Part shown: positions 1,014 through 22,300 of the stretch, in pieces
How the letters are laid out: the number at the start of each line of letters is the position of its first letter
Position numbering within the stretch: the first letter of the stretch is position 1
NCBI GenBank assembly: GCA_028565635.1
Contig: JAOXYB010082832.1
Coordinates: 1-22,931 of the forward strand
Direction of reading: 5' to 3'
Length of the DNA stretch: 22,931 nucleotides
From: Phoronis ovalis
Lineage: Eukaryota; Phoronida; Phoronidae
Notes under the pieces: model-generated
Told to the model about the DNA's origin: nothing
Seen by the model: the letters and a program-made list of their open reading frames with translations, nothing else
The model's database searches: none
Position numbers and translations under genes: made by a program

Positions 1014-1110
1014 ATGCCGGAGAACAATAATCCTACATGTATAAGACAACATAAAAAAGGTGATAACCTTGAACAAGACGTTATTCCGAAGCAGTGTCTA
1101 CTTCAAGAAG
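1014..1110 (+). CDS. Exon 1: short N-terminal coding exon
   Basis: ATG at 1014, beginning MPENNN, gives 32 codons and ends CAAGAAG|GTAAAA with phase 1. That phase joins exactly to the acceptor TTTTCAG at 1376, giving continuous reading VLSVKTMADL into exon 2. The peptide is polar, with no signal peptide or transmembrane segment. It is chosen because the next exon enters in phase 1 like all the downstream modules. The alternative is that this stretch is non-coding and translation starts at ATG 1394 in exon 2. Confidence 0.45.
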
Positions 1111-4100
1111 GTAAAAAGTGAAAGCAAAACTATTTCTGTTTGTGTTAACTTTACTGTTTTATTATTAATCAACCGTTGTTTGAATAATAATGTAATTTCA
1201 GCTAATTTTTTATTTACTCTGAAATACAACTTTTAATTTATTATTATAACATCTTATAATTTTCAGTAACGCATGTAATCACAGCATGTATGCAAATTTA
1301 GAAATCACACATATAGGAACATTAACAGAAAGGCATGGTTAGAAATAACCTTTTATTATCACACTTGTATTTTCAGTTTTGTCAGTTAAAACAATGGCTG
1401 ATCTTGCCAGAATCCTGCAAAACAATGAATTTTTCACTGTTGGGAAAATGCTCGGATTTAAAGACGAGCACCTGCGAAAGTTAAGTGCAAAGCAGAAAAA
1501 GATGCGCAAATGGAGAAATTTCACTATGTTGTATGAATGGTTAAATACGGTAAAGGATGGTACTGAAGGAATCAAAGTTCTACAAAATGCCTGGAGAAAT
1601 TGTGGAAATGAGAATGTGATTACTAGTCTGCTGCCAAAGATAAAACTTTACCATAGCAAGCATGGACGCTGTGCCATGAAAGTTGCCGAAATTCCAATTC
1701 CTTATAAAAATAGAATCCTGGATTTATCAAATAGATCGTTAGATGAGATCCCATCTCATGTATGGGATCTAACTGACACTGAAGCTTTAGATCTTTCTAG
1801 AAACAACCTCACTGAGATCCCGGATGACGTTAAACGACTCATTAATTTAAAATGTTTAATTTTAAGCAAAAACCAATTTCATAGGTTTCCTGATACAATT
1901 CGTGAACTAACGAATCTTGAAATACTATGCCTAAGTAATAATCCCATTGGTAAATTTGATGACTACTTTGCGAAAACAACATGTAAAGAAGGCGCCGACG
2001 TGACATGGCCGTGTTTAAAGATATTAGATCTGGGAGACCTGGGATTGAAAACATTACCAGTTGGCGTGACACAACTGAATTTGGAAGAACTGTACATTTA
2101 TGGCAATAATGGTATTAAACTTGATAACATTGGAGAACTTAGAAAGCTTAAAATGTGCTGTCTTGCAAACAGTAATCTTGAAACCTTTCCAGTATCTATA
2201 ACCAAGTTGACTACACTGAAGCATCTTGACATAGCATACAATTCCCTCACAAAAATTGACGAAGATATCAGCAAAATGCAGGGATTAGAAATTCTTGGCA
2301 TGCAGTGGAATAACATAAAACTTCTCCCACAGTCTGTAACACAGTTGAAGAAATTGAAAACCCTGGATATCACAGCAAATAAGATATCTGATTTTCCAGA
2401 AACTATAGGCAAACTCAAAAATCTTACTACATTGAATGCCGGTGGTAATGTAATAAAAGAAATTCCAAATAACATAGGACAGCTAAGGAAATTGAAGATT
2501 TTGAGATTGCGTCAAAACAAAATCGAAGTACTACCACCATCATTTATTAAATTGACAAACCTTAAGGAGCTAGATATCATCGACAATTTAGTCACAGATC
2601 TACCAGAAGACATTGATAAGCTCAAAAACCTCAACATCTTGGCGGCACATTTTAACAGAATAAAGAAAGTGCCACTTAAAATTGGAGAACTTAAACAATT
2701 AGTTCAATTATTACTTTGTGGCAATGACATTGAAACGCTGCCTGAATCACTGACTACATTGATGAAGCTACGTGAACTTGATGTAAGAAAAAATCAGTTG
2801 GAATGTCTACCCAGCCATATAGATCAAATGAAAAGTCTTGAAGTTTTAAGAGCTGATCACAATAAGTTAAAAGTGTTTCCGGAAACATTTGAGGGACTCC
2901 CGAACTTAATCGAATTGGGCTTAGAAAACAATGAAATTGTCCGTTTACCAACAGCCTTAGTTAAATCTGAAAAATTAACGAGATTACGCGTTAAACAGAA
3001 CAAGTTAATCCAGCCACCACAGCATATGTGCGATAGTCAAGGCTTAGATGGTATACGTATGTACCTTAAAGCCTTGCACTTTGACCCAGGAGTTGATGTT
3101 GGTAGACAACTATGTATTGTGCTAGGTGAAGTTATGGCAGGTAAAACTTGTGTCACTAATGTGCTCGTCTCCGGTGCCCCATTTGCCTGCGATGTCAATG
3201 ATCGAACAAAAGTACTTGAAACTGCTACCTTGAATTTAGAAGGAGATGGGCTGGTTATTCATATTATTGATTTTGGTGCTCATGAGTCATATAAGGCAAT
3301 TCACAGATTCTTTTTAGCCCCAAACGCAATAATTCTATTGGTATTTGATCCGTGTACATATACACCGGAGAGGTTTGATCTACTGATCGGTGATTGGATT
3401 CGTAATATACAGCTGTGGTTACCAGAAACTACTGTCCACCTAGTGGCTACTCACTGTGACAAGATAACTGAAGATCAGCAAGTCAGTATTCAAGATGAAA
3501 TAGAGGAACAAGTGAAGCAGCTTTTGCATAACAGAAAAGCATACTTAGTCAAGGAAAGAAAAAACACGAAACATTTTCCATTTGAAACGATTGACAGAAG
3601 GATTAAAGGAATTCAGAATGTTAAAACAGATGTACTATTTGTGAGCTGCTCATCAGAAAATCTTCAAGGATTTGATGCGCTTCGTACATTAATTACAGAC
3701 TTTGCAAATGATTACAGAATTACAATGCCATCGACATGGGCTAAAATTGTGGATAAAATTACAAGTCAAGAATTGAAAAGGAAATATACATTTTACATAC
3801 CATGGCAAGAAATTGCTGACATACAGGCAGACTTTAAAATAGAAGATAAAGAGGCTCAAGTCATTCTGGAATATTTACGGGATGTTGGACAGATTTTATA
3901 TTTCCCAGGCAATAATAAACAGTTAGGTCGCAAAGTTTTTCACAACAAGACATTTTTTATTGAGCTTTTGAAACTTGTTTTTGATCATAACTTAGAAAAT
4001 CGCCTTAAATCGTTTGTAGAATATCAAGATTATTTTCATGTAGAGCGACAGTTTAGAAAAGCCGTAAAAGATTTTACTGAAAGAGGAGTTATCAGTGAAA

Positions 4101-7100
4101 ATTTTCTTAAGTGCTTGCTGAAACCTATTCATTTTAAAGCTGAATTGGACACCGTTCTGGAGTTATTGAAATTATTTGATCTTTGCTATGAACTTCAGAG
4201 GTCAGAAGATGATGAAAAACATTTCTTGTTTCCGTGGTATCTAAAAAGTATTACTGACAGCGCTGAAAACCCTTGGAAGAAGTGGCAAGTCTGCTCCGAA
4301 GAATTCTTCTTGGTGCTGGATTTTAATTTTGGCGGGTATTTTCCCCCATTTTTGTTCAATATCGTCTTGGTTCAAGTTCAGCAACTTGTTGATTCTAACC
4401 ATTCGGCTGTGTGTTTCCACTGGAAAGATATATCGGTTTTTATGTACGATTGTATCCGTGTTAAAGTAGAACATTTGTTGGGCAATAATCCCCCCATTCA
4501 TCGCCTTCAAGTTACTATTAATGCTCTGCCTACTAAAAAGAATTTATCCGATAGTTGGAAATTCTTCATTTCACTGCACAATCAGCTACGTAAAAGATTT
4601 GAGATGGAATGGCCTGGGGCAACATTTGACTCAAGTTGTTTGTGCCCACACTGTGTTCTATGTGATTTTGAGCTACCAGCCGCATTTGAAATTTTCCGAG
4701 ATCCTTGCAAAGACATACTTAAAGCGAGATGTCCACATGATCATACTATTGAGATACCAGCTGCTCTTGTCATAAACTCCCAGGAAGGTAAACGTTATTT
4801 AGGTATTCTTGTATTACAAAGTTTTTCTAGTTCTGTTAACAGCCTCTCACTAGCTACTACCTATAAAACTATAATATTACCTGTTCGTATAGTGTTGCAG
4901 TTTGACGAATCCATCTTTCCTAGCTGCATTATTTCGATGACACAAGAAAAAATGACTGCAGTTTAATTCAGCCACCTCGGATATAACTATGTTTTAGTAT
5001 TGGTACATATCTTTTCAGCTACAGATCAACAGATGTCGATGATTACAAAGTTTTTGGAGAAGTTTCAGGTTGGTCAAACAAAAGGTAAGAACAAACTTTG
5101 AGATTATTGCAAGAAAATGCAATTACTGCAAAATTATTTTATTTAGATTTTTGTATGTTTCGACTTCTGCGGTAGAAACAGTCTCGTCAACAAAAATAAC
5201 TGTCAGAAAATTATTCCTACGAAATGAGTGTACAGGCGACAGCGTGTTCGAAGCTTGGTAACGCTTTTATGGAACAAATTAACGGAGGTAGTTTAAACGC
5301 GTACGAACAAGTGGTTTGTGAACTAGTAACTGTAAACAACCTGAAAGATGTTCTGGTAAACATTTTATTCTCTAACTACTCTCTTTGTGCCAACATTGTT
5401 TGTTGTAGTCGTGCATTTATTTATTTCTAGAATTAATTTTGGAAAACACCCAGCTGACTCATTTGGCAGAAGAGATAGGAGATGACTGGATGCATCTTGG
5501 TGTATACCTTCACATTAAAAAGTCAGAACTGGATGAGTTTAATACTATGTATCCAAAACAGAGTCTCAGCAGAAACACTCTAATGTTGATGAAATACATA
5601 GAAGAATGCAAAGATAGATCAAGTGCATTAGAACAACTATATGTGGCCTTAAAGAAGTGTGAAAAAGAGTACGTGTGGGCGAAATTAGGGATTAATATAT
5701 CCGGTGATGTTTCTACCTTCACTACAGTATGGCGTACATTCACTAATCTAAGTCGATGGCTTCAAAGAACAGGTATATAACCCATATAATGTAAACTCCT
5801 CTATAGCTTGTAGGTAGCATGTATTTGGTTTAGGACATGACTGCACACATGTTCATTGTTGTACATTTTTTTTATAGATTTGCCCGGAAATAGCTCATCC
5901 TTGATCACAGGTGAAAATTATGCTGAACAAGGTAATCGATTTCTAAGCACTAGATCTAGTTTACTTTGTTGTACTCAAATTGTTTCAATGTGCTGATTAT
6001 TATGTTATATTACACATCGATATCGACATACACTGTACTTATTAATATAGTTTGTTACCTCGACTACTAGCAAAATATTGCGTGTCTACGAAGAAATTTA
6101 TTGTTAAGTCAGCTAGGTAAATATGTAGATTATGCTAGTTTACTAAGCAGTGTTTTGTAAACTCACTTAGTGTTACTCAAAAGCGTCACCTTTTAGAGTC
6201 ACACATTGATTTGAAGTGTATACATGCCCTTTTATATTTACTTTACTCGCTGGAACTGTCGTGATAATCGTCCGAGTAGATATTTCTATTGGGCAGCTGG
6301 ACGTTAGGAGACAGTTGCAGCAGCCGGAAGACAGAGCATTCTTATGTTACTAGTGTAACCATGTCTTTATTTAAGGTAAAATGCCACTATATTGTTGCAA
6401 CAACAGTGACAATGTTCTTAACGATGAATGACATTAACCATGTGATCTTAATATTTTTAGTTTTAATGGCTGACATAGCTCGAGACATCGGCCATGAATG
6501 GCGAGATTTAGGACGGTGTTTAAACTTCACCCCTGGTCAACTTGATATGCTTGCTGACGATTATCGCAGTGGTCGTCAAAGGAACTTAACAATGCTGTGC
6601 AAGTGGAGGGATAGAGTGTTTGCACAAACTAACCATTTGCAGAAACTTATTGAAGCTCTTGTGACTTGCAAGAGAGAAGATTTGGTTCAAAAGCACCTAA
6701 CTGGTAAGTCACAGTGGTAGGAATTGTTTTCATTCATTCGCTTGTGCTATATCAGTGTATACAAAATATGTAAAAATAAAGTGATAACATGCATGGTTGG
6801 AAGAATAAATGACAGCTTAAAATATACAAAAAAAAAATATTAACTCTGATAGCAATTGATGCCTTATAAATCAGAAGTCTTAATGACCTATTGTACATAT
6901 GTCCGGAGAGGCACTCTCTTTTATACGAGGTAGGGGTGTGAGGCCCAGGGGTCCAAACCTGACCCTGAAATATCACCGGAATTGACAAAATACCTACCCT
7001 GAAATATCCTTGGCCCCAAAAATCGTCTCCGTGCTGCCAGAAAAAATTGACAAGCAAAAAAAAGGAAAAGGTCATTTCCACTTCTTCTATCGTACTACTA

Positions 7101-10100
7101 TAACACCCAAATAAGGCTAACGCTTAAAAATATTTAACTTCCGGGTGTAACAACCCTATGCCACTCTAAAATATCTTAAAAACCCCACCCTGAAATATCC
7201 CCTTGACGTCAAATACCCACCCTGAAATATCCTGGTAGCCCAATGACACACCCTGAAATATCCTAGTAGCCCAAAAAATGAGCGACCCTGAAGTGCGGCA
7301 CATATATATATATAGACCGATATAGGAAGTGCCCCCCGGGACATATGTTCATTTGGTTTGTTTAAACATCTCCCAGTTAAATTTAAGATTGTTACAATTC
7401 CTGTTTCATAGTACTAAATTTTTACTTATGTTTACAATATGTTTCTGATTTTGATCTAAGGATCTCCTGCGACTCCTGAAGTGAATAACTCTAAGGACGA
7501 AAATAAAGGTGAAGCCTGCATTATCGCCGAAACTGCTGCGCCAAGTCGTAGTACTGAAGAGCCTAAATTTCAAATTTATAGTGATACCAAGCCTCTATCA
7601 GGTAATGTAAATAGGTATAGAATAATTACTTTATAGATATATTAATGTATAATACGGATTTTATAATTAAACTTGAGTTGAGTGAATTATAGGATATTCT
7701 TAGGATAATCTTTTTTGTCGGGCTATGCTTCTTCAGATATGTGTGGAAAAGTCTTCAAACATGATAATAGTGAAAATGACAAGATTCCAGCTTCCTTTTT
7801 GGTTCGTATTTTCTTTTAAGCAATACATAATTAATTATTAAAATAATGTCGATGTGTCCATTGCAAACTTGTATTCTTATCTTTATATAGGTAAACAAAA
7901 CGTAGGCATCTAAGTATCTGAAACCTTTTACTTGTTCTTAGGAATGGAAAGTGTATATCATTCCATGATCAACACAGGGTGACACAAAATGAACACAGGT
8001 GCACGAACACCGTGCATAGTTTTTTATGAATTTTTGACTATTCATGTACAGCTACTATAGCTAAAATATTAGTATGAGATTTCAAAAATGCTTATTCAGA
8101 TCGACTAAGTGCTACTGAAAACGATACAACAACATCAACAACAATAGTCAACGGGATTTTTTCGAGCGATTTATTAGCAAGAATCATTTTTGAAACGCAA
8201 CGTATTTTACATTTTAGAAGCAAATGAATGTTGTTTTTTTGTGTTTTTTTTGACTGAGCTAGCTAACCTAATTTTAGTTCCTGGGGAGAATTTTGGATTA
8301 ATTCATAGCGTTATATTACGCATTGGCGATATAAACAATGAAATGAAGTAATACAACTATGTATTTTTATAACCCTGTATAGTAGTCCTCCTGTTATTTG
8401 AATTCAAATTTTCATCTTTATCGTCATCTCTGGCTAGGGATACTTTAAAATTGCTCCCATTTTCCTGCTAGGAAAGTTTCAATAGACCCTAATTTCATTA
8501 ACTTTTCTTACTTTGCAGCCTGCCAGGATCAAAAAAGTATTTCCGGTACATATTCCCATTGCACGTTTTTCAGTTTCCATGTTTGCTCACCCTTTATAAT
8601 GGAGAAGTGACATATTTCGACATTAAATAGAAATATTACCAAAGCCTTACCTATTTCAGTGACCAGATAATGATTTATCCTTTTTCATTCTAGCTAGTTT
8701 TTGATATCTTTCTTTTAAATTCCATCACCAGTCCAATTAGACGTTTAGCTACACTTATCTTCTTAAATTTCTCTCTGCGAAAAGTTGAACTGGAAGTAAA
8801 AAAACGTGTATGCATTGTATAAAATTGTATAAATCATATAAATTCGTATTACCTATATCAATATCTGTTTAAGAAAATTCCAGACAATTTTACTTGAACC
8901 TCGTATTTGTTTTTAAATAACAACAACAGTAACAATCTCAATCTGAAAAAGGTATTTCATATATAGTTTGGAACAATTTTATTGATTTCAATAATTTGAG
9001 TTTGGTGTTGAAATATCAATACCGACAAATAGCTACAAGCATTGCAACAAACAATGCTGAACGTTAGTCGTTTCTATATTTATGTATATCAAAGCAACAT
9101 TATGACGTACAATTTATCTATTTCACTTTAGATTTTGATGTGGAAGAACCCATACTTCTGCATAACCAAATGATTCGTGAATTGCACGAAGAATATACAG
9201 AAGACTGCCTGCAAAAAATGATTAGTCAGTCTTCGGATTTGACGAGGTACTTACATCAACATCACATTTACTTAACTAATATGCGTACTTTAATAAATCA
9301 GTGTTAAATTGCAATGTTGCAAAAACAAACCCGAAAGTGTTTTTTAGATTGCCATTTCCGCTTTAGATGACTGAGTAACGTCGCAAACTTAAAAGTAAAT
9401 CATATAAATTTAGACAAAAATGCAAAGCCTTTCTTCCACGCGCACGTCATTATGTTTTCCGACTATCCTCGTTAGTATGGACACTGCTATACAAAGCCAA
9501 GTTAGATAATGCTGTTAGCATATGGGTATTGGTCCTGATTTCACTAACTTACGCTGTCTACAGCCCATCGGGGGGGGGGGGGGTGCTCGGGTATAAAGCG
9601 GGTACCAGTGCGCGTGAATCGTCTGAAAAAAAGACTCTAAACCAGTTGTCCGGTGCATTGGGGACTGGTGCTAAAAAAAAATAAAACGAATAAAAAATAT
9701 GAAATGAGCGAAATAAATATATTTCCACTTCTGTCATTCACTGTTATCACCAAATGGCCAAAAATCCTGCAAAATGGCAAAAAAAACTCATAGAAATTAT
9801 CAGTACAGCTCCTGTGTCCCAGGCGGCGCCTTGTACTAAATAGAACAGTATCAAGGGATGACATGGTTGAATTTTTAAAAAAAATATTGTTTTGCCAATC
9901 AGCCCACGCACCCTCAAGAAACTTACCAGAACAATCCTTCACTCCTTAAACTAGCGTTAAAAATGTTTCTATACACGTACCTCTACAGAAATACGAAATA
10001 TTCAACAAAAAAATTATAACTTGTCCCGAAGACGGTGATCGTTAAGGAAATTGACCTTTCACTCTGACTAGGTCACAAGAAACAGTATCAATATCCACCG

Positions 10101-13100
10101 GAAATCGTCGTTATTTGGACAAAGATTCGCCAGCAGACGAAGCATGATGATTCTCAGAAAGTTCGTTGTTTTCTGATACAAGCATTTATCCAATCAACGA
10201 CGATTTCCATTGGTCAATAGTATTGTTTCCGGTGACCTAGTTAGAGTGAAAGGTCAATTTTCTTAACGATCATCGTCTTCGGGGACAACTTTTGAGTTTG
10301 TTGTTGAATATTTCGCATGTCTGTGGAGGTAAGTGGATGGAAACATTTTTTGACGCTAGTTTAAGGAGTTAAGAGTTATTCTGCTAACTTTCTTGAGGGT
10401 GTTTGGGCTGATTGGCAAACTTTTTTTTTTTTAAATTCAACCATTGACATTTTCAATTCTCGTGTCACCCCTTGATACTGTTCTATATAGTACGAGGCGC
10501 CGCCTGGGACACGGGAGCTCTACTGATCATTTCTATGAGTGTTTTTGGCGTTTTTGCAGGATTTTTGACTATTTGGTGATAAGTGTTAATGACAGAAGTG
10601 GAAATATTTATTTCATTCATTTCATATTTTTTATTTGTTTTATATTTTTTTTAGCACCCTGCGGTCCGGTGTACGAAAAATGACCTCTAAACAATACCAT
10701 TCTCAAAAGAGTACCTTTTTCACCGGATTTTGGTAACGAGCATTGTATCCACTTTTTGTTAGAATATGCATTATATAATATGTATGTTAGTATACATTGA
10801 TATACTATTATTTGTGGTGGAATTGTTTATGTACCAATCCTTTAAATGAGAAATGAAGCAGAGAAGCTAGTTAAATAAGAAATTAGGAAATTGTAAAATG
10901 TGTGCACATGTTTAAATGGAAATGTTTAAAAATAGATTTTAATTTTAAATAAAATCAACATTGTGCCTACTTTTAAATACTATAAAAAGGTTTTGTAACA
11001 CTGTACTGGTCTGCTGGATTTTGTAACTTCAAGCTGAAAATGTTTTGTAGAGCTGATGAATTTGTCAACGTGTTGAATATACCTGAACTGATGGAAGCAC
11101 GCGCATCAACGGGCTCTATATGTGTAGGAAATTATGACTCTCTGCCCTTTTGTCAACTTATTAAAGATTATAGTCAGAAGATATTGAACGCTTCAGGTTA
11201 GTAGCATAAGAGTAGTTTCCTTTATTATACGTAGGTTCTTTCCAAAAAATTGTTAGTTCTTTGTATCTTTTTGCTACAAGTGTGCAAAATGATTTTCAAA
11301 TTATTACATGCACACATAATAAAAACGATTTTTAAAGTACCATCATATACATGCATCAACAAAACTTTATGGAGTTTCAATGAATGTTTCTAATTCGTTT
11401 GCGTGGTTATCGGGAGACGAGATATACATGATTTTAACTGGACATTTTCTCTTTCTAACACCACAGTGCGTTTTAAGCCCAGCTTCTAAGCACGAGTTCG
11501 CATAGGCCGTGCATCTTATTTCCTAGATTGCTGCGCATGCTCTAGTCTGAATAAATCCATCCGGAAGTGTGCCATATCTTCTCAACTAACGTCTGGCTTA
11601 ACCATAGTCAATTTTCGTTATATTCCTTCAATTCAACAAGATACATCATTAAACGTTTGACCAATCGAGTTAACATTTCTCTGTGTGATTGACCTACTTT
11701 ACTAGCTACATGTACCCGCTCATTCCACTGTTGTACGTATTGTTGTACTAGTGCGTGCGGCGTTAGTAGTAGAAAAATGTCAGAAAGCAAATCGTCACCA
11801 AAAGGTGTAGCCTTGCGCCCTATGACACACTAGGTGACAATATAAAATATATCTACTATTATAATCATCGTTATATTGCGTTTTATAAAAATAACACATT
11901 GGTATTACTGTATTTACTTTATAATAAAGACTCGGAATAAACACCACCAATAGCATCCTTATGCCATGTAGTACATGTACTTTGTCGATAGCATAAGAAC
12001 TGTTGAGTTTGCATCTTCTGTTTTTATTTATACTTATCATTGTATTTTAGTTTTAGGATCCAACATTAACCTTGTACATAAACTGGGAACAGACTGGATA
12101 TTTGTTGGTATATACCTTGGTATTAAAAAGTCGGATTTAGATGAATTAGATGGTAGACAAATGTTAATGCAGTGGCTAGCAAGGTGTGCTGGGGACAGAT
12201 CTCAATTGTTACATTTGTACAAAGCATTAGTAAGAAGCCAACAATCTGAACTTGCATACATGTTGACTCCTGCATTGAAAGGTGAATATAACCCAGTTGT
12301 TAAATTAATGTCTCTTGGCAGTACATTTACGAAGAAGTCACGTAAACTGTTTAATTATGCAATTTTCTTGGCACATGAACACATTTATGCGTATATGTAA
12401 TCTAACTGTCAATGAACAAATCAGCATGTCAAAAGCAGGTATGTTATTGTATGGGAAAACTGTTATATGTATGAATATTTAGGTGCGTTTCCAATATCTT
12501 TATGAGCGGCGACTTATTTTCACTGGTGTGAGCTTTAAAGTCCTATAGATAACTACTTGCAATAAACAAAATCTATATATCAATCTTCTAAAAAACCATG
12601 TGTATGCTTTGGTTCAGTCACTGAACATGAATAAAACAATTCATACTGTACGTGTTTTTTGCGTACACTTCTGCTTCGATAAAACTTCTCGCAACAAAAA
12701 CATAGACAAATCTATGCTTCTCGAGCAGACGATTACAAAGAGCCTAGACAACAGACAAGTCTGTTTAACAATAGAAATACTAACATAAATTATAAATTTG
12801 CTTTAAATAAGTTTGCATACCCATTTAATTAAGTTTGAGATATTACCACTTACGGCTACATTATATATATTTACAGGGAAATACACGTTTTGATATATAT
12901 GGTTGGAGGAATAGACTATATGCATGCAGGGCAGCACAATCGAGCCTGACTTAAAAATGCATTATGAGATGAAATTTAATCAATTCAATAAATGTTAATA
13001 AATAATGGTTTATGTAATGAAATACTAAGGGAATGTTTCCTAAACCAACGGTAATAAGATTTTTTGTTTCTGCTCGGTATGTGGAGAAAGCGAAAAATAT

Positions 13101-16100
13101 AGCATTTTGTGAATGAATTGCTTGTGAGCACGGTGAAGTACGTCAAAGTGCGACACGCTGGGAAGGTTTGGGTTCACGAGTGGTGGCTCCACAAAGTGCA
13201 TGCAAATGGTCTATTGCTGCTAAAAAATTCACTGAATATATTTCGTGCAAAAAGCCACACATCCATGAATTAAGGCAGTACTTTCATACAGTCTATAACT
13301 AATAATTATCTATATTTATTCGTCTATATGTTCAAGCATATTAACAAAATATAAACACTTATGCATCGTACTGTCATGATGAATGCATATTAGATCTAGT
13401 ACATCTATCTTGTTACTTGAACACCTTCATCACATGACAATTTATAATTAGATACATATAAGTAAGTGCATATTTTTGCTTACTGTTTTGCAATCTCTTT
13501 TGTTTTTCTTTATTATCATTCACTACCTATTTTCCTCATAGGTTTGATGTCAGAGCGGTTAGACGACTCGGAAAAAAATGGTAAGTTATATTTTTTAATT
13601 CATATTATATATTTAAGTGATACAGAAAAAAAGACACCAACGAACTACACGAATGAGTTTACTGACCACACCGAATTTTAATTCCTGGCAATTCGTGTGC
13701 CCGTCATACTAAAAATCATTGTGTTAGTAAGCAGGCAGTAAATAAAAATGTATTGATAACTATAATACTAGTATGTTTACGTAGATTTGACGGCGCTTAC
13801 TTTGGCTGACACGGCAACACAACTCAAAGGTGATGAATGGAGAAATGTTGGGTTTTCGTTGGGATTTGATACTAAGCATCTGGATTCGCTTGATCTTAAA
13901 TATAACGAAAATGCCAATCTGAGAAACTTCAACATGCTATACGATTGGTTCAAAACAGTTACCAACATAGTGGAAGGCAAAATAATTCTAGATGAAGCGT
14001 TAAAGAGAGGTATAACATTCATTAACTAAAAACAAGTAACAAATGAAATAGAATATTTAAATAATAGCTAAACAATATCTAATGGGCCGGATATATAAAT
14101 ATATATATATATTGTTCGTGTACTTACACGTGTAACATTTCATATTTTCAACGTTTTATTAATAAGCCTATACGAGTCGATTCCTAAGGCTTAGAATATA
14201 CACTGTCAGGAACATAAATACACCAATTTCTTTAATTAAATTTACTTTCCTTTTATATTGTATGACTTGTCTATACAAATTTGTCTGTGTCTGCGTATGG
14301 GTTGTTGAATTTGAATATAAAAATCACATATTAACTGTATGGGTAGAACGAGTAGTAATTGTCTTGAATAAACTCATAAATTGGTTATATATGTTCCATT
14401 ATAACGCTATTCAGGCCCGTTGAAACAGTAACGCACCTGTTGAAACAGTAACGCACCCCCCTTTTGAAATAGTAACGCATCCCCTTGTGAATTGACAGAA
14501 AAACACGCGTACCTGCCCGCTCCCTCTCTTTGGAACAGAAAGAAATATCTTTTTACGACGTTAGCACTTATTCTGGGCGTATTGTCACAATAGGAATGGA
14601 AATGTCCTTTTTTTGCTTGTCAATTTTTTCTGGCAGCACGGAGAGGTTTCAGCGACCTTTTTGGATTACTGAACTGATGTTTTCTGAAATCGGTAATTCT
14701 AAAAACACCACAAACGCATCCCCTTTTGAAAAAGTGTCTGACGGGCCTGACTATTGAAATACTGGGCAGCATATATTTGTGCTAGTAGGTAATTGACAAT
14801 TAAAAATATGTCCAAAAAGTATGCATTTGAAAAAAAAATGTTTAAGATTGTATTAGGAGTTATTTGTACTTATTCAAATTAGATATATCCCATTTATGTT
14901 TATTTTTTTAACGTATTATAAATTAATAGAATATGGCGACTATGCTTGTAGTATAATCGGCCGGGGGATCTCCGAAAATTATTCGCGCACAGATAGTAGT
15001 CCACAACAAAATTGTCGGCAATAGACCAATAGTAGCACATGGAAACTAAATCCATGTGACCCTAAGAGCAGTCTGAATGAATCCATCCGTTAGTGTTCCG
15101 TACCTTCTCAACTAACAGCTGGCTTACCCCAGTCAATTTTTGTTTATTGCATTGAAAAGCAGAAGAACGATAATCTCTGAAACTCTTGACACCAATCAAA
15201 TTACAGCTTAGGTATAACAGTGGACTAAGGGGTAGGTGATCGATTATACACATTCTGTCCTGCCAAAGTTTATCAATAGTCCGCTAGCAAAAGCAAGCTC
15301 CCCAGCGATACCTATTCAGAATGAGTCATCATGATAGATTAGACGTAGTAGGCCGCGATGGATCGCACAGAGTGAAAGGTTTATTTTGGTGGGCAAGTTA
15401 AATGACGTAATTATTTTGTTCTTGTTAAATTGAAGGAATGTAACAAAAATCGACTATGGTTAAGCTCAAACGTTAGTTGAGAAGGTACGGAACACTAACG
15501 GGTGGAATTAGTCAGACTGCCCTAAAAATAACCGTAAGATAGGTTTTCAGTGACATTCTATTTTGACCAATGTTTGTCATGATATGCCACTATCGGAATT
15601 GAAGTCTTTTTATTAGATTCAGTTTTTTTCTCTTTCAGATCAACAATTAACATATGAAACAGAGTTAATAAGCTTCGTTACAGCGACAGAACATCCAATT
15701 ACTGGCATACTATCAGAAATGCATGTGCAGTTGCCATATCCTCGAAAAAATTGGAAGCTTGTGATAGAAGACTTTGAAAGAAACACTGTGAATTTTTCCT
15801 TGAGTGACATTAAAGCTAAAAGTTTTACAGCAAAATTCAGACCCAGAACTGCTGGGAAACATCAAGTCAGAGTTATTAGCGGTGAAGGTATTGAAGTCTT
15901 AGTTAAAAAACGAGAGTTTACTGTAGAGAGTAATAATCCTGTGTGGACATTCGGCAGTAAGGGTTCTGGTGCTGGGCAGTTTCAGTTTCCACGAGATGTA
16001 GCATTAGATAGTAATGGTAACATTTATGTAGCAGATGAGGATAACTACCGGATAGTTAAAGTCAGTCCATCTGGTGAATATGTCAGTCAGTTTAAATTAG

Positions 16101-16765
16101 TAAGCAAAGTGAATAATAGGAATAACGAGGTATATGGGTTGGCAGTTGATAGTAAGGAACAAGAGATTGTATGTACAGTGGGTGAGGTGTTCTCTAGCGT
16201 CATACAAGTGTACACAATGGAGGGAAAGTTGAAGCATGAGTTTGTTAATGCTGAAATAAAGGCAGCATGGTATGTAACTGTTAATAGCAAAAGTCAGATC
16301 ATTGTAACTGATTACCATGCGAATGCCATATTCATTGGTAGTAGGCAGGGTGAACACATACAGTGGGAGAGAGTGGGGAGAAAGGGTCAGGGATCAGGAG
16401 AGCTCTCACATCCACGAGGCATCGCAGCAGGACCAGCTGATGACATTGTTGTATGTGAGGAGGGTAACACGCGTGTGCAGATATCAGATAAGCATGGCTC
16501 TTTTAAGCATCATTTTGGCTGGGAGGGTCAGAAATTAGAGAGGGTCCCCACTAGTGTTGTTGTGGATGAAGACAACAACATCCTGATATCTGACAGGAAG
16601 AAGAATGACATTCAGGTATTCAGTTATAACGGTCAGCTGATTTCCTGCATAGACAGTGAAGCTGTTATGTTGAGTAAACCTCAAGGCCTAGCTGTCACTG
16701 GAGATGGCTATCTCATAGTAGCAGATCAGTTCAATCATTGTATCAAGAAATATCGGTACAAGTAG
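1014..16765 (+). CDS. Predicted multi-exon gene: Death-LRR-Roc-COR-(Death)x4-Filamin-NHL protein
   Basis: Best model: join(1014-1110, 1377-4787, 5019-5084, 5431-5772, 5878-5931, 6461-6703, 7461-7601, 7737-7805, 9132-9246, 11051-11196, 12051-12281, 13542-13580, 13785-14009, 15639-16765), about 2,101 residues. Every intron is GT-AG and all are phase 1 except the one between 9246 and 11051 (phase 2). Domains in order by predicted residue: death domain ~39-120, 19 LRRs ~144-590, Roc GTPase ~608-770, COR ~816-1168, death domains in exons 4, 6, 11 and 14, filamin Ig ~1730-1820, NHL propeller ~1825-2101. No kinase domain is present. Family knowledge: Roc-COR is a dimeric GTPase switch, death domains form signalling helices, NHL propellers bind proteins or RNA. 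Inference: an intracellular stress or immune scaffold. Frame continuity across 14 exons and a single poly(A) signal argue for one gene, but some small exons may be alternative or wrong, and two overlapping transcription units cannot be excluded. Confidence 0.65.
1377..4787 (+). CDS. Exon 2: death domain 1, 19 LRRs, Roc GTPase and COR
   Basis: One 3.4-kb exon. After acceptor TTTTCAG it reads LSVKTMADLARIL, a type-A death domain containing NFTMLYEWLNTV. From about nt 1709 come 19 consecutive ~23-residue leucine-rich repeats of the LxxLxLxxNxIxxLPxxIxxLxx type, ending near nt 3030. The Roc GTPase follows. Its P-loop GEVMAGKT is at 3125-3148, the G3 region DFGAHE at 3269-3286 and the G4 motif THCD, typical of ROCO proteins, at 3449-3460. 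COR runs from about 3725 and ends with the Cys/His-rich CLCPHCVLC...CPHDHTIEIP, as in MFHAS1-like ROCO proteins. The strong phase-1 donor CAGGAAG|GTAAAC at 4787 closes it. Reading on to TAA 4964-4966 would add 59 hydrophobic, domain-free residues, most likely intron. In G3 the DxxG glycine appears to be alanine. Confidence 0.9.
4788..5018 (+). other. Intron 2, open for its first 179 nt
   Basis: The intron starts GTAAAC and ends CATATCTTTTCAG. The exon 2 frame stays open to a TAA at 4964-4966, so intron retention would give a ROCO protein ending after COR plus 59 extra residues, without the downstream death and NHL domains. The residues look like translated intron rather than a domain. Confidence 0.6.
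5019..5084 (+). CDS. Exon 3: 21-codon linker
   Basis: Acceptor CTTTTCAG and donor AAAAG|GTAAGA give a symmetric phase 1-1 exon reading TDQQMSMITKFLEKFQVGQTK. It could be a short amphipathic helix. Its TDQQ start resembles the DQQ at the start of the final exon. No domain is recognised; it links COR to the second death domain. Confidence 0.65.
5085..5430 (+). other. Intron 3
   Basis: GTAAGA to TTTATTTCTAG. It contains an open stretch from an ATG at 5224 with plausible codons, but its possible splice sites are phase 0 and incompatible with both neighbours. No gene is called. Confidence 0.5.
5431..5772 (+). CDS. Exon 4: death domain 2 (type B)
   Basis: Acceptor TTATTTCTAG leads in phase 1 to a death domain: LAEEIGDDWMHLGVYL, then HIKKSELDEF, a loop, LMLMKYIEECKDRSSALEQL and a last helix ending near KLGINISG. 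It is the closest match in the window to death domain 4 in exon 11 (VGIYLGIKKSDLDEL). The stronger donor is AACAG|GTATAT at 5772, which includes about 23 residues beyond the domain. A weaker phase-1 donor at 5703|5704 (CCG|GTGATG) sits where exons 6 and 11 end and may be used instead. The role is presumably homotypic death-fold interaction. Confidence 0.85.
5878..5931 (+). CDS. Exon 5: 17-codon linker with two possible donors
   Basis: A T-rich tract and TTTTATAG precede a symmetric phase 1-1 mini-exon, LPGNSSSLITGENYAEQ, ending CAAG|GTAATC. A second in-phase donor at 5910|5911 (CACAG|GTGAAA) would shorten it by seven codons. It is a polar linker between death domains 2 and 3. Confidence 0.5.
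5932..6460 (+). other. Intron 5
   Basis: GTAATC to ATTTTTAG, AT-rich. Near 6361-6378 an ATG with good context is followed by TTTAAG|GTAAAA, which could be a non-coding or alternative first exon, but it would enter exon 6 out of frame. Nothing else seen. Confidence 0.4.
6461..6703 (+). CDS. Exon 6: death domain 3 (type A)
   Basis: Acceptor ATATTTTTAG; the frame reads LMADIARDIGHEWRDLGRCL, then the type-A signature NLTMLCKWRD and a final helix ending HLTG. The donor ACTG|GTAAGT matches consensus exactly, phase 1-1. Like exon 2 it carries ATGGCTGA close to its start, so it could also serve as the first coding exon of a shorter transcript. Read-through of the donor meets TAG at 6718-6720, and AATAAA follows at 6775-6780. 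Confidence 0.88.
6895..7348 (-). mobile_element. Non-autonomous element in intron 6 with flanking inverted ends and internal GATATTTCAGGGTG units
   Basis: The ends mirror each other: ACATATGTCCGGAGAGGCAC on the left, and the complement of the right end is ACATATGTCCCGGGGGGCAC. ACATATGT is self-complementary, so it may be an 8-bp target duplication or part of the terminal repeat. Inside, the unit CCCTGAAATATC (GATATTTCAGGG on the minus strand) recurs at least five times at irregular ~30-40 bp spacing, on both sides of a ~110-bp core at about 7019-7128. That core matches 14545-14645 in the opposite orientation. No transposase is present, so it is MITE-like or a composite satellite-bearing element; the superfamily is uncertain. 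Confidence 0.7.
7461..7601 (+). CDS. Exon 7: 46-codon low-complexity linker
   Basis: Acceptor TTTTGATCTAAG and donor CTATCAG|GTAATG, phase 1-1. The translation (SPATPEVNNSKDENKGEA to SDTKPLS) is rich in Ser, Thr, Pro, Glu and Lys and is probably a disordered linker. An internal in-phase GT at 7512 (AAAG|GTGAAG) could shorten it. No domain recognised. Confidence 0.65.
7737..7805 (+). CDS. Exon 8: 22-codon linker (tentative)
   Basis: Acceptor GCTTCTTCAG is good; the frame reads MCGKVFKHDNSENDKIPASF. The donor is poor: GTTC|GTATTT at 7805 keeps phase 1, while TTTTTG|GTTCGT at 7801 would be phase 0. Because exons 7 and 9 are both compatible in phase 1, this exon may be skipped or spurious. Confidence 0.35.
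7806..9131 (+). other. Intron 8 (1.3 kb)
   Basis: AT-rich with scattered homopolymer runs; no coding exon, RNA gene or clear repeat recognised. Confidence 0.4.
9132..9246 (+). CDS. Exon 9: first half of an unrecognised helical module
   Basis: Acceptor TTTCACTTTAG, phase 1 entry, reading FDVEEPILLHNQMIRELHEE to MISQSSDLT and ending ACGAG|GTACTT in phase 2. This is the only non-phase-1 junction in the gene, and it joins exactly to exon 10. Together the two exons encode about 86 residues with helical character. A divergent death-fold domain (DED, CARD or DD) is possible, but I cannot assign one. Confidence 0.7.
9570..9583 (+). repeat. G14 homopolymer
   Basis: An uninterrupted run of 14 G within intron 9, just upstream of the foldback element. 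It is prone to length error in sequencing and polymorphism. Confidence 0.9.
9635..9642 (+). repeat. Target-site duplication, left copy
   Basis: CTCTAAAC, identical to 10685-10692 on the other side of the foldback element. Confidence 0.7.
9643..10684. mobile_element. Foldback element: ~0.48-kb inverted arms in intron 9
   Basis: The left arm (9643 to about 10127) is the reverse complement of the right arm (about 10178 to 10684), with a ~50-bp spacer. Matching landmarks are GGTGCTAAAAAAAA against TTTTTTTTAGCACC, TACTAAATAGAACAGTATCA against its complement near 10470-10495, and GAAGACGGTGATCGTTAAG against CTTAACGATCATCGTCTTC. The element is flanked by a perfect 8-bp direct repeat CTCTAAAC at 9635-9642 and 10685-10692, as expected for a target duplication, and the left end starts CAG. 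This suggests a hAT-like foldback. Both arms can be translated into similar peptides (RRRLGH...VNDRSGNI), but this follows from the duplication. I see no transposase. Confidence 0.85.
10685..10692 (+). repeat. Target-site duplication, right copy
   Basis: CTCTAAAC, identical to 9635-9642. Confidence 0.7.
11051..11196 (+). CDS. Exon 10: second half of the unrecognised helical module
   Basis: Acceptor ATGTTTTGTAG, phase 2 entry completing an Arg codon with exon 9. It reads ADEFVNVLNIPELMEARAS, then ICVGNYDSLPFCQLIKDYSQ, and ends GCTTCAG|GTTAGT, phase 1. The pattern of short helices (VNVLNIPEL, FCQLIKDYSQKIL) vaguely recalls death-fold domains. It is separated from exon 9 by a 1.8-kb intron carrying the foldback element. 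Confidence 0.72.
11197..12050 (+). other. Intron 10
   Basis: GTTAGT to TGTATTTTAG. It contains a diverged MITE copy at about 11537-11720; otherwise AT-rich with nothing recognised. Confidence 0.5.
11537..11720 (-). mobile_element. Diverged copy of the 15068-15519 MITE
   Basis: TCTGAATAAATCCATCC followed by CTTCTCAACTAACG and CTTAACCATAGTC aligns best with the reverse complement of the right arm at 15425-15519. Weaker similarity continues inward to about 11720. I could not find its far terminus, so it is truncated or strongly diverged. The right boundary is approximate. Confidence 0.6.
12051..12281 (+). CDS. Exon 11: death domain 4 (type B)
   Basis: Acceptor TTGTATTTTAG, phase 1, reading LGSNINLVHKLGTDW, IFVGIYLGIKKSDLDEL, MQWLARCAGDRSQLLHLYKA and a closing helix ending PALK. 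It is clearly related to exon 4. The B-type core [HF][LV]GxYLxIKKS[ED]LDE is shared and distinct from the A-type domains. The donor is GAAAG|GTGAAT. Reading on gives 39 more codons to a TAA at 12398-12400, and that region holds alternative splice signals. Confidence 0.85.
12282..13541 (+). other. Intron 11, with a possible extra exon near its start
   Basis: GTGAAT to TTTTCCTCATAG. A phase 1-1 open segment at 12322-12438 (acceptor CTCTTGGCAG, donor AAAGCAG|GTATGT) could be an exon, but only 40 nt would separate it from exon 11. The remainder is AT-rich, with no repeat or RNA gene recognised. Confidence 0.4.
13542..13580 (+). CDS. Exon 12: 12-codon micro-exon
   Basis: A strong pyrimidine tract and acceptor (CCTATTTTCCTCATAG) and a consensus donor AATG|GTAAGT enclose 39 nt in phase 1-1, reading LMSERLDDSEKN. 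The splice signals are better than those of most exons here. It is a charged linker before death domain 5. Confidence 0.6.
13785..14009 (+). CDS. Exon 13: death domain 5 (type A)
   Basis: Acceptor TATGTTTACGTAG, phase 1, reading LTALTLADTATQLKGDEWRN, VGFSLGFDTKHLDSL, NFNMLYDWFKTV and LDEALKR, then donor AGAGAG|GTATAA. The segment RNFNMLYDWFKTV is close to RNFTMLYEWLNTV in death domain 1, pointing to duplication of the same exon. It is the last death domain before the filamin-NHL exon. Confidence 0.87.
14412..14749 (+). mobile_element. Second, diverged copy of the intron-6 element
   Basis: Bounded by CAGGCCCGT (14412-14420) and its exact complement ACGGGCCTG (14741-14749). The flanks GCTATT and ACTATT are a near-match that may be a decayed target duplication. 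The 14545-14645 core, including TTGCTTGTCAATTTTTTCTG and GCAGCACGGAGA, matches the reverse complement of about 7019-7128. Short units (TTGAAACAGTAACGCAC and variants) flank the core, but their sequence differs from the GATATTTCAGGG units of the first copy. Confidence 0.7.
15068..15519. mobile_element. MITE with ~90-bp terminal inverted repeats
   Basis: The left end GCAGTCTGAATGAATCC...CGTTAGTGTTCCGTACCTTC is mirrored at the right end (GAAGGTACGGAACACTAACG...GTCAGACTG). The arms extend about 90-100 bp inward, through CTTCTCAACTAAC and AGTCAATTTTTGTT. Flanking 8-mers CCCTAAGA (15060-15067) and CCCTAAAA (15520-15527) differ at one base and fit an old target duplication. The ~250-bp centre has no coding capacity. 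It is a non-autonomous DNA transposon, possibly hAT-like from the duplication length. Confidence 0.8.
15639..16765 (+). CDS. Exon 14 (last): filamin-type Ig domain and NHL beta-propeller
   Basis: Acceptor TTTCTCTTTCAG enters in phase 1 (DQQLTYETELISFVTATEHP), so the coding part extends 80 nt upstream of the first in-frame ATG at 15719. The first ~95 residues have filamin repeat features (VNFSLSDIKAKSFTAKF, RPRTAGKHQVRVISGEGI, final EFTVES). About 275 residues of NHL repeats follow. Clear blades start FGSKGSGAGQFQFPRDVALD with NIYVADEDNYRI, then RKGQGSGELSHPRGIAAG, VPTSVVVDEDNNILISD, and KPQGLAVTGDGYLIVADQFN. Filamin-NHL is the C-terminal pair of TRIM71/TRIM2-type proteins, but no RING or B-box is present here. 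TAG is at 16763-16765. NHL propellers bind proteins or RNA; the ligand is unknown. Confidence 0.92.
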
Positions 16766-18993: not shown

Positions 18994-19292
18994 TATAGCG
19001 AAATATGTCAACCGAGACTGACTGCAATAAATCACAATTTTCAAAACCGCAGACATTTTTTTGGATCATATTATACAAAGCAGTCGTTCAACATTCATAA
19101 CCAAAAAGGTCATATGTAGTTGAAGTATGGTTTTATGTTATAACAGCATAAAATGAATAATTCAACTCTTAAATTTACGTAATTTCTATAAATTTACATT
19201 TCTAAATTTTCGTGCCAAATTTCTTTTGAATAGTCGATATAACAGGCATTTTACGTAGTCCACAAGTAACTCAATTCGACTAATTAGAAATA

Positions 19293-19361
19293 ATGGACAG
19301 AAAACTTCCTGCACCAATGTACAGCCGCTATTGGCCATTCACGAGGGACGACACAGACAAA
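19293..19361 (+). CDS. Gene 2 exon 1: start of the cytoplasmic tail
   Basis: ATG in good context (AAATAATGG), 23 codons beginning MDRKLPAPMYSRYWPFT, then donor ACAAA|GTACGT, phase 0. It joins the phase-0 acceptor of the next exon. It is too short to judge alone; confidence comes from agreement with the transmembrane exon. Confidence 0.55.
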
Positions 19362-22300
19362 GTACGTTTTTCCTAAGCTTTATTCTTCTAAATTATTTTA
19401 ACCAGATAGTTTATTATGTTTTACATGTTTATATTTTTAAATGTAAATACTTTTAAAATATTGCAAGCAAGAAGCACTTTCAAAACATTTGCTCCACAAA
19501 TACATATTCTGCCGGGATTCAGGAGACCCGATAGTGTACCAATAAAATGTTGGAGTAAGTGAAAAAAGATTCATCACCCTCTGATCACATAAAAATTAAA
19601 TGTGTTTTAAAATCCAAACATAGTAGAAACTAGAAATACGAAATACAACTTAAGGAAAAACGCATAAATGCGTTTTTAAAAGAAATATAAAGGGTATATG
19701 TTTTGCTTATAATGTTTTTATTAAGAATACTAACACGATAAAGGGTATTTTACTTGTGTACGAATTTATTTGAGAAAGAAAGGTCGCATCTCAATTTCAT
19801 CGGCTTCAATTTTAAAATTACTTGTTTTAGTGGGAGCCAAGAACACGATTTACTAGTCAGAGAGAAAGGAAGCAGTACAGTCCATGGCTTCTGTCAGAAC
19901 CCTCAGACAGTGCAACTTTACCACCTGAATTTACTGAGGCAGAAATAAAAAAACGCAGAAACAACATAATACTGTGGTTTATACAAATATTTGCATTCGT
20001 GTTTGCTATCATTGTAGTGTCTATTGTAGCAGGTAAAATTTCATTCCTGTTCATCTTTTAATGTATGCACGTATAAAGTAAAACACTTGTCAATAACTTT
20101 GGGGAGGATAAAGTATACTCCAAAAATGTTTATATCAAAGTGCATATTAACTTGAAAGATTCATAATATTCATTTTTTTGGAAAAAAAAGGAATGAATAC
20201 TTTAAAGGGAATTTTGATTTTGTTACGAGAACTCTGGTCCGGATTTTTATTTCCTTTTGATGGCGAACTAAATCACAGCAATTAAATTCTTAACGAAGTA
20301 TTTTTTTCTTATAAGACCGTTGAACCATATTCAGAAATGTACGTACATTTGTAAAGCATATTTTTAACACAATTTACGTGCATGCTCTTGACGCTGTCAT
20401 CAAGGCTACCATATCACCGAAAAATATAGCCAAAAACTGAAAATCTCCCCATCTGTGCTTATCTTTATATTTAAAGAGTATTATTTTCTGTGATAGGAAC
20501 TAAGTTTATGCTCTCTTTATTTCCATTCAAACATTTAATTTTGTGCTCGCACTTGCGGAGGAAATCTGGAAATTACATAGCATTTTACGACATTTTGCGC
20601 AAAAAAATTAAAGGTGGTAAATCATCAGATATTTTATTCATACTTCCGGTCCATTCATTTAAAAAAGATACAGCTTCATTATTTACTGTGAACAATTGTA
20701 TATTGAAGGTCTTACTAATGGATTTGAGACCAAGAAAGAAAGAGAGCAAGCTGCTTATACAGTTGGTAAAAATAATACCATTCCTGATGAGAAGGGAGGA
20801 GGTACTGTTAGTACTTTTATAATATATTTCATTGTTGGTGAAAACTGTTGTGCTTGTGCTTGTGCATGTGCGTATGCGGGTGCGCGGATGTGAATGTGCG
20901 TGTGGGTGTAGCTGTGGGTGCCTGTGGGTATGTGTGGGTGGTTGTGTGTGGTGTAGGTGTGGATAGGTGGGTGTGTGTGTGGATGTGTGTGTATGTGTGT
21001 TTGTGTCTGTGTGCACGTGTGTATAAGAACTAAACAAGTTCAGATAATAACTTTCGATGTACGCTACATATATGTTCCCTTTTCACTTATACTATGAGCA
21101 TTAATTTTCCAGTTCATTTATTTTCTGGGAACATGACAGTCTTGAATATAAACTATATGCCATCCTTGGAAAACACTTCTTCTGGAGAATTCAAAAGATT
21201 AACCCAATTAATCTGTCAGGAGGTGAGATTTTAAATATATCAGACTCTAGAGCTAGGAAAGTACAATAAAATATTTTTTGTGGTCAGTTATAACAGTATT
21301 AAGGATATGAATAGGAAGCCTGGCTCAGGCTGTGTATAGGTAAATTTTATCAGCTTCGTTTCATTCGGCATGTTTTCTTTATTCTTCTCTCCCCTGTGTG
21401 TGTGCATCGTAGAAACGCTAGTTAAACATAATTTTGCGTAGATATGTTGAGAAAAGTATAGTTCACATATGCTTGAGTTAACAACGAAATGCATAGGTTT
21501 GTAGAGGTGCTAGGTCGTGTAAGAATGCAGAGTTGCATAACTCATTATATCCAAAATTTAGTTATACACAAAAATGCTTTGTCGGTAATCTGCCCTATTC
21601 AGTCATCAGGTATACGTGCATATGTAAAACAATTTTACATTGAAATTTCAATTGACCAAAGAAATGAGTTATATAAGGCATAATTGCCGCAGAATTGACA
21701 ATTAAAACATTGCGAAACTTGTATTCTTGATTCCAAAAACAAAATTCAAACTATTTTTTACCGTAACCGTTTTCATCTTTTCAAATTATAAATGTTGATT
21801 TCGTATTCTACGTCTTTTCGTGCAGTGTTAAAAGCAAAAGCGTCTTAGGATAAGATATGTTGGATGGAGTTTATGTGGGTGCAATACCTATAAAAGAGTC
21901 ACCTTTCATATGTTACCACAGTGAATTGTATGTTAAATCATTACTACTTTTTTCACATTTTTTCCTGTAATTAGGTAATATTTATGATTTTTACGTACGC
22001 ATAACTGCTGACCAGGCTGTTGCCATTTATAACGTCCTGCAGTAAAATCATGTTTCAAGTAGCTACCTTAATTTTTTATTTTTAACTTGCTTTATATAAC
22101 AAAAGTCCTTACCAGTTCAGGTGTATGCATACTAATACTTGTATTTAAACTTTTTTTGTATAAAGACGCATCAAGAAGTATGCGGAATTATTGTTTAAAT
22201 TTATTTCATAAATTTTAATTTAAGTTTTTCTTTGGAAAACGCTGAAAACCCAATGTTTGGATTTTTTCAGAAAAATTAAAAAAATTGAATTTCTGTTTTC

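Follow-up and report, generated by a model that had tools for sequence, protein, structure and literature searches.

The contig studied here raises the question of whether a ROCO GTPase, a series of death domains and a Filamin-NHL tail of the TRIM-NHL type, all lying on one strand, are parts of a single protein. The window, meaning the whole stretch of 22,931 nucleotides that was analysed, is contig C4521 of the Phoronis ovalis assembly (77.4 Mb, 4805 contigs). We suggest, with a probability of about 60%, that it carries one gene that is kin to the ROCO-death genes found on at least 15 further contigs, that this gene encodes a (Death)-LRR-Roc-COR-Death-Death-DED-Death-Death-Filamin-NHL protein, and that the tail was added by exon shuffling. 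The domains, the open frame, the recurrence of exons beside ROCO paralogs and the purifying selection are all results of computation.

In brief, a splice model of 12 exons on the + strand (Table 1) gives a stop-free frame of 2040 codons from 1394 to 16765, with GT-AG at each intron. The in-frame splicing of a ROCO GTPase to death domains and a Filamin-NHL end, as put forward in the preliminary description, can thus be built. All junctions in the model are phase 1, with the sole exception of exon 7/8, whose phase 2 intron is common to the paralogs. Comparative support is lacking for linker exons 4 and 10, and no conserved copy of exon 4 was found in the loci searched. A possible polyadenylation signal, AATAAA, lies at about 16869. 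The Pfam E-values, together with the exons that recur in paralogs, put the domain assignments above chance: LRR, Roc, COR-A, the exons of death domains 2 and 3 (DD2, DD3) and NHL all lie between 2.5e-8, the value for Roc, and 4.8e-46, that for LRR. The assignments of the N-terminal domain, DD4 and DD5 are weaker and derive from family members and a profile.

Table 1. Exons of the gene model and the evidence for each. Positions are those of the window; in the splice model exon 1 is counted from 1394 (1394-4787).
Exon	Feature	Position	Strand	Evidence
1	ROCO exon	1377-4787	+	Phase-1 acceptor and phase-1 donor; death-like domain at about 1394-1640, LRRs, Roc, COR
2	Linker	5019-5084	+	In frame, GT-AG; C3035 exon 68% identical; stretches in C4344 and C3846 57-59% identical
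3	Death domain 2 (DD2)	5431-5772	+	Pfam Death 4.2e-9; C3035 exon 74% identical
4	Linker	5878-5931	+	In frame, GT-AG alone; skippable with frame kept
5	Death domain 3 (DD3)	6461-6703	+	Pfam Death 3.1e-11; C3035 exon 78% identical
6	Linker	7461-7601	+	In frame, GT-AG; C3035 stretch 40% identical
7	DED-like domain, first half	9132-9246	+	Exon in 8 other loci; C3035 56% identical
8	DED-like domain, second half	11051-11196	+	Exon in 7 other loci; C3035 71% identical
9	Death domain 4 (DD4; Death / bDLD3-like)	12051-12281	+	Below the Pfam cut-off: bDLD3 2.1e-4, Death 0.033
10	Linker	13542-13580	+	In frame, GT-AG alone; skippable with frame kept
11	Death domain 5 (DD5)	13785-14009	+	Family profile vs RIPK1 death domain 4e-4
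12	Filamin-NHL and stop codon	15639-16765	+	Pfam NHL 7.6e-28, Filamin 0.019 (below cut-off); phase-1 acceptor

Three further observations were made outside this gene. Two possible exons at 19290-20033 (+) of the window, the second with a hydrophobic stretch seen by eye, may be a gene for a small membrane protein. A low-complexity, GT-rich tract, also seen by eye, lies at 20850-21030. Elsewhere in the assembly, G000:C1114:10091-11431 matches COX1, and the six TGA codons in its frame are what a mitochondrial code that reads TGA as tryptophan would give.

The open stretch of the ROCO exon is 1131 codons long. Pfam identifies LRR_14 (4.8e-46), Roc (2.5e-8) and COR-A (2.3e-11) on it; Roc and COR-A follow each other in that order, each over its cut-off, as is diagnostic of ROCO (Roc-COR) proteins. 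The GTPase motifs in the window read GEVMAGKT (P-loop), DFGAHE and THCD. All nine aligned ROCO copies keep the P-loop and the DFG, and eight keep the D of THxD. The LRRs described at the outset are present; their number was given as 19, and a loose motif counts 17 matches, a few of them overlapping. The description of the protein as lacking a kinase agrees with our scan, in which a kinase match was absent from the six ORFs scanned, a scope limited by the upstream exons missing from the window. Apaf-1/CED-4 homologs use an NB-ARC ATPase, and neither NB-ARC nor NACHT was matched in these six ORFs. PIDD has the layout LRR-ZU5-UPA-Death; the model here differs in that neither ZU5 nor UPA was matched in the same ORFs.

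Where the protein begins depends on how the 5' edge of the ROCO exon is read. An AG acceptor lies just 5' of the N-terminal domain in all eight paralogs read. We read the ROCO exon as internal, and the N-terminus of the model as incomplete, because this acceptor is kept in 8/8 and the ATG at 1394 in 5/8 of the paralogs; a start at that ATG was rejected on the same grounds. An upstream death-domain exon on the same strand is found on 11 of the 15 other near-family contigs. The window's N-terminal domain has no Pfam Death match when scanned alone; members of its family do match. Further upstream, positions 257-847 are Psychrobacter fabF, with 81-86% DNA identity (eight loci compared of the 80 returned) and up to 93% identity to the Psychrobacter FabF protein. 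By these identities the piece is a chimera or a contaminant, and we rejected FabF as a part of the ROCO gene. An upstream exon may have been lost along with it. The candidate exon at 1014 in the preliminary description begins 166 bases past the Psychrobacter fragment; it could be real and is without support.

The link from the ROCO part to the death domains is well supported by comparison with paralogs. The phase-1 GT of the ROCO donor codon is at the same position in eight of the nine paralogs read, and in C4798 it is about one codon off. The join proposed between COR (4787) and 5019 is borne out by this kept donor, by the linker exon shared with C3035 (Table 1) and by the death-domain exons that follow in paralogs. 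An end of the ROCO part at 4966, named beforehand as the outcome that would separate the two, has the kept donor and the downstream paralog exons against it. We rejected it as the end of the ROCO gene: the frame passes the donor, yet the similarity to paralogs stops there.

At least 15 contigs besides the window, some of which could be alleles of one another, carry near relatives of the ROCO exon. These are C3035, C4344, C3846, C2924, C1727, C261, C1831, C3258, C4798, C2001, C2375, C3443 and C1255, with C2490 and C4107 present as fragments; the best candidates were scored, and the count is a lower bound. One or more death-fold exons lie downstream on the same strand on 11 of the 15 (C3035, C261, C1727, C1831, C2924, C3258, C4798, C2001, C2375, C3443 and C3846). 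Of the remaining four, three (C1255, C2490, C4107) run out at the ROCO part or close to it; in C4344 there are linker 2 and a weak match to exon 7, with nothing stronger downstream. In C3035, C1831, C261, C2924 and C3258 the ROCO exon is followed by DD2 and then DD3, and in C1727 by DD2. Exons 7 and 8 come after DD3 in C3035 and C3258, after which both contigs end. The order in C3035 is linker 2, DD2, DD3, linker 6, exon 7 and exon 8, at the identities given in Table 1.

The death-fold array varies between paralogs, since in C4798, C2001, C2375, C3443 and C3846 exon 7 is the next match after ROCO, DD2 and DD3 being unmatched in between. Exon 8 and DD4 then follow in two of these, C4798 and C2001, and in C4798 DD5 comes after them. 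Later exons also occur on contigs that have no ROCO match, namely C1297 (exons 7 and 8, DD4, DD5), C2423 (DD4-DD5-DD4-DD5) and C3266 (DD5). Every adjacent pair of the window's death-fold exons recurs elsewhere; the full DD2-DD5 series is in no single paralog, partly because contigs end.

Five death-like domains, the number first reported, are confirmed. The array as a whole appears to hold six death-fold modules, as exons 7 and 8, missed in the preliminary description, look like a Death effector domain (DED), which is not certain. Pfam finds DED in two of eight members of the exon 7 and 8 family (best 3e-5) and not in the window's own exons. A profile search of the PDB with this family found no DED structure, and the split exons were not among the matches of a genome-wide DED search. 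DD2 and DD3 match Pfam Death over the cut-off and so belong to the death-fold superfamily; DD4 falls below, and exons 48-57% identical to it are found in C2423, C4798, C2001 and C1297. When exon 11 (DD5) and the N-terminal domain are aligned together, eight of the 11 family members match Pfam Death (best 5.2e-4), and their common profile gives the RIPK1 match listed in Table 1. The window's own exon 11 has no Pfam Death match.

The edges of the DD4 and DD5 exons are kept in other loci. Both C2423 copies have the phase-1 donor of DD5 at the codon used in the window, and C4798 and C1297 have it further on. With a phase-1 donor closing it here and at other loci, DD5 is on this comparison normally not the last exon.

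Exon 12 has the Filamin-NHL C-terminus of TRIM-NHL (RBCC) proteins, in which Filamin alone is weak. Against structures it matches TRIM2, TRIM3 and TRIM71 at E-values down to 5e-38 (TRIM71 entry 6fpt, 1.3e-32). Its nearest relatives are in the same genome, on C3004, C1138, C406, C3254 and C2933, and it is 41-51% identical to three aligned copies from CARD-(RING)-Filamin-NHL genes. In C3004, C406 and C2933 a RING lies directly 5' of Filamin-NHL in the same frame; the parts of C1138 and C3254 that were fetched gave no RING match. A CARD exon lies upstream on the same contig and strand in four of the five close relatives (C1138, C3004, C406 and C2933), and the three CARD exons scanned have Pfam CARD E-values of 4.5e-18, 6.1e-20 and 2.2e-14. 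The C3254 copy is near a contig edge and has stops. CARD exons precede (RING)-Filamin-NHL exons on one and the same strand at L020 (3972-4235 with 2149-3540), L021 (4875-5174 with 2855-4003), L022 (2850-8366) and L024 (158-2820), the exons of these layouts being joined by adjacency. The contigs of the CARD-(RING)-Filamin-NHL relatives have no ROCO match. In the window, a tblastn search with the RING of the relatives gave no match at E 0.5, and no credible CARD match was found (best E 0.2).

It should be noted that the join of DD5 to Filamin-NHL is present at the window locus only, as a genome-wide search gave no second example. Four contigs, C4798, C1297, C3266 and C2423, extend past the DD5 exon without Filamin-NHL; only C4798 also has ROCO, and for C2423 and C3266 the first 9990 bases were read and the absence of Filamin-NHL comes from the genome-wide search. 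Downstream of DD5 and on the same strand, C4798, C1297 and C3266 instead have a conserved exon of about 60 amino acids (L027 5303-5485 and 1966-2145, -; L030 2967-3155 and 1385-1573, -; L029 1614-1790, +). Two copies of it were scanned with no Pfam match, and its profile had no PDB match; TRADD-N-like is a candidate identity. No match to this tail exon was found between DD5 and the NHL exon in the window.

The proposed join from 14009 to 15639 stands in part: the phase fits and no CARD or RING partner is found in the window, but it is a single locus. We consider an exon-shuffled hybrid the best reading of it, because the DD5 donor and the exon 12 acceptor are both phase 1 and each is without its usual partner. 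Most likely, phase-1 exon shuffling would have supplied the Filamin-NHL end from this genome's own CARD-(RING)-Filamin-NHL genes, in the position that another tail exon occupies in some paralogs.

Instead of one gene the window could hold two: a ROCO-death gene, which stops with DD5 or later, or else runs on into unrecognised exons, and downstream of it a separate Filamin-NHL gene. The absence of Filamin-NHL at the four other DD5 loci would fit this, as would the CARD exons that adjoin the relatives of exon 12 on contigs where ROCO has no match. A short first exon is also possible, given nine short stretches from an ATG to a phase-1 donor within 14010-15638. Such a gene would nevertheless be without a RING match or a credible CARD match in the window, and DD5 has its phase-1 donor here as at other loci. 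The + strand from DD5 to the NHL exon has no open frame as long as 100 codons, and no match to the tail exon. The Filamin-NHL exon is itself probably used, because its 374 codons form an unbroken frame while its nearest relatives are about 50% identical to it, and it needs an upstream exon. On balance we regard two genes as unlikely, and favour the single hybrid gene.

A misassembly is possible at the repeat in the last intron, between DD5 and exon 12, in which case the death-domain and Filamin-NHL parts would come from different places and be joined at this repeat. The Psychrobacter fragment at the contig start indicates that the assembly is not clean, and the repeat, 453 bases at 15068-15520, has related copies elsewhere. 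Against an artefact, and only suggestively, the copies compared among the fetched loci are only about 76-86% identical. The flanks of the repeat, read by eye as CCTAAGA and CCTAAAA (7 bases, 6/7 alike), are as left by insertion into one contiguous site, and the window is free of N; these points too are only suggestive. We find an artefact improbable. The repeat and a second one at 11544-11641 have inverted ends of 52 bases and are MITE-like, with related copies at L025, L015 and L007.

The gene may also be a relic, that is, a decaying or unexpressed member of its family. Some relatives do carry stops, for example the C3254 Filamin-NHL copy and the ROCO copies of C1727 and C3258. Compared with C3035, dN/dS is about 0.28 for the ROCO exon, 0.22 and 0.27 for DD2 and DD3, and 0.33 and 0.29 for exons 7 and 8, which indicates purifying selection on all the exons of this comparison. 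Compared with C2423 it is about 0.27 for DD5. The higher values for DD4 (about 0.63 vs C2423) and for the last exon (about 0.51 vs both C1138 and C3004) would suit a relic; still, dN/dS reached 1 in none of the comparisons, from which linker 2, saturated against C3035, was left out. All 12 exons are open and the GTPase motifs are intact, and we give a relic very little credence.

If the single hybrid gene is accepted, a mechanism can be proposed from its domains. The LRRs and the propeller would bind a signal, and GTP/GDP turnover in Roc-COR would alter dimerisation and free the death-fold array. The Death and DED modules could then seed an oligomer, to which partners bearing matching domains would be drawn, for example DED or Death adaptors and caspases. 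By analogy, a signal read by LRRs or propeller, switching by Roc-COR and an array of Death and DED modules would together amount to an apoptosome-like platform; it would not be a member of the apoptosome family, because NB-ARC and NACHT were unmatched in the six ORFs scanned. A predicted death platform fits the domains, and is strengthened by the DED-like exons and by caspase-like exons in the same genome. The assembly has 42 caspase-like matches, several of which are pieces of one gene, 42 Death matches at E 0.01 and seven DED matches at E 0.05; this content, together with the CARD exons, points to an animal genome.

More tentatively, and at rather less than even odds, we speculate that the whole family consists of innate-immune or cell-death platforms in which Roc-COR stands in for the ATPase, a variable Death/DED array recruits caspases, and the C-terminal sensor is swapped with CARD-(RING)-Filamin-NHL receptors by phase-1 shuffling, with the window as a hybrid. 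If real, the gene, whose relatives occupy 15 further contigs or more, would extend to a GTPase switch the rule of sensor, nucleotide switch and death-fold array that holds for animal death platforms. It would also show receptors gaining new sensors through the exchange of symmetrical exons, and the DED-like module would be a direct link to caspases.

Database searches outside the genome returned parts of the layout. Region 560-2040 of the model gave 84 matches among 7997 candidates scored in a protein database, to NHL and other propeller families, and Death, Roc or COR was noticed in no row among the 84. Roc-COR alone had none at E 1e-3 among 5739 candidates, and that database thus yielded no relative of the ROCO part. 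The ROCO exon had no confirmed match in genome-contig and viral-contig collections; against plasmids 95 records had a match, and the five listed are LRR or COR proteins at 29-35% identity. PADLOC gave no match. NCBIfam gave sub-cut-off LRR and NHL look-alikes alone, including some with bacterial effector names, which we take to be repeat similarity.

Within this genome, the CARD-(RING)-Filamin-NHL genes on C1138, C3004, C406 and C2933 contain the closest relatives of the last exon; they differ in the CARD exon upstream, in the RING of three of the four and in having no ROCO match on their contigs. TRIM71, TRIM2 and TRIM3 share the NHL propeller, and TRIM71 also Filamin; unlike them, the model here has no RING, and its NHL is apparently fused to ROCO-death exons. 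Malin, according to the part of PMC3503706 available, is a RING-NHL protein without a B-box.

For the ROCO part, the available sections of PMC6337361 offer two animal comparisons. DAPK1 (ROCO group 3) combines Roc-COR with a Death domain, and differs in having a kinase before Roc-COR and no LRRs, where the model here has LRRs and several death-fold domains. MFHAS1/MASL1 (ROCO group 1) is LRR-Roc-COR without a kinase, and, as far as the accessible description goes, without a death-fold array or propeller. The same sections report that bacterial CtRoco is mainly a monomer with GTP and a dimer without nucleotide, and that the oligomeric state of MFHAS1 shifts with nucleotide.

Death-fold domains recruit each other, FADD-type adaptors and caspases, according to the part of PMC8195603 at hand, which also describes bacterial LRR-AP-GTPase-COR conflict proteins with variable C-termini and a proposed role in defence. 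These resemble the model here in LRRs, Roc-like GTPase, COR and a variable C-terminal region; they are bacterial, and the C-terminal domains named for them there are effectors and other adaptors. In Amphimedon, proteins are reported that combine TRADD-N and variable C-termini with between one and three death-like domains (PMC8195603). Invertebrate homologs of Apaf-1/CED-4 share with the model a death-fold recruitment domain, a nucleotide switch, a tail of propeller or other repeats and domain swapping, varying at both ends; theirs is WD40 rather than NHL, and NB-ARC rather than Roc-COR (PMC2246300, available part).

A close published case is Trichoplax adhaerens, with at least 17 ROCO genes and with CARD, death, TPR and LRR around Roc-COR (PMC4104024, and again PMC11378527, in the parts available). 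These are animal Roc-COR proteins, and NHL, Filamin and DED are not named for Trichoplax in the accessible part of PMC4104024. Roc, COR and NHL were not found as words in the accessible part of a paper on placozoan immunity (PMC6321704), and in PMC8075586 Roco occurs solely as the name of an author. The preliminary description knew of no family with this layout. We recognised no paper describing the full layout among those listed from the literature searched, most subscription papers being outside its scope; CARD or death domains and LRRs around Roc-COR are, however, already in print for Trichoplax, as far as the available part of PMC4104024 goes. ROCO proteins with CARD or death domains are thus known from Trichoplax, and what is new, as far as the literature searched, is the layout here.
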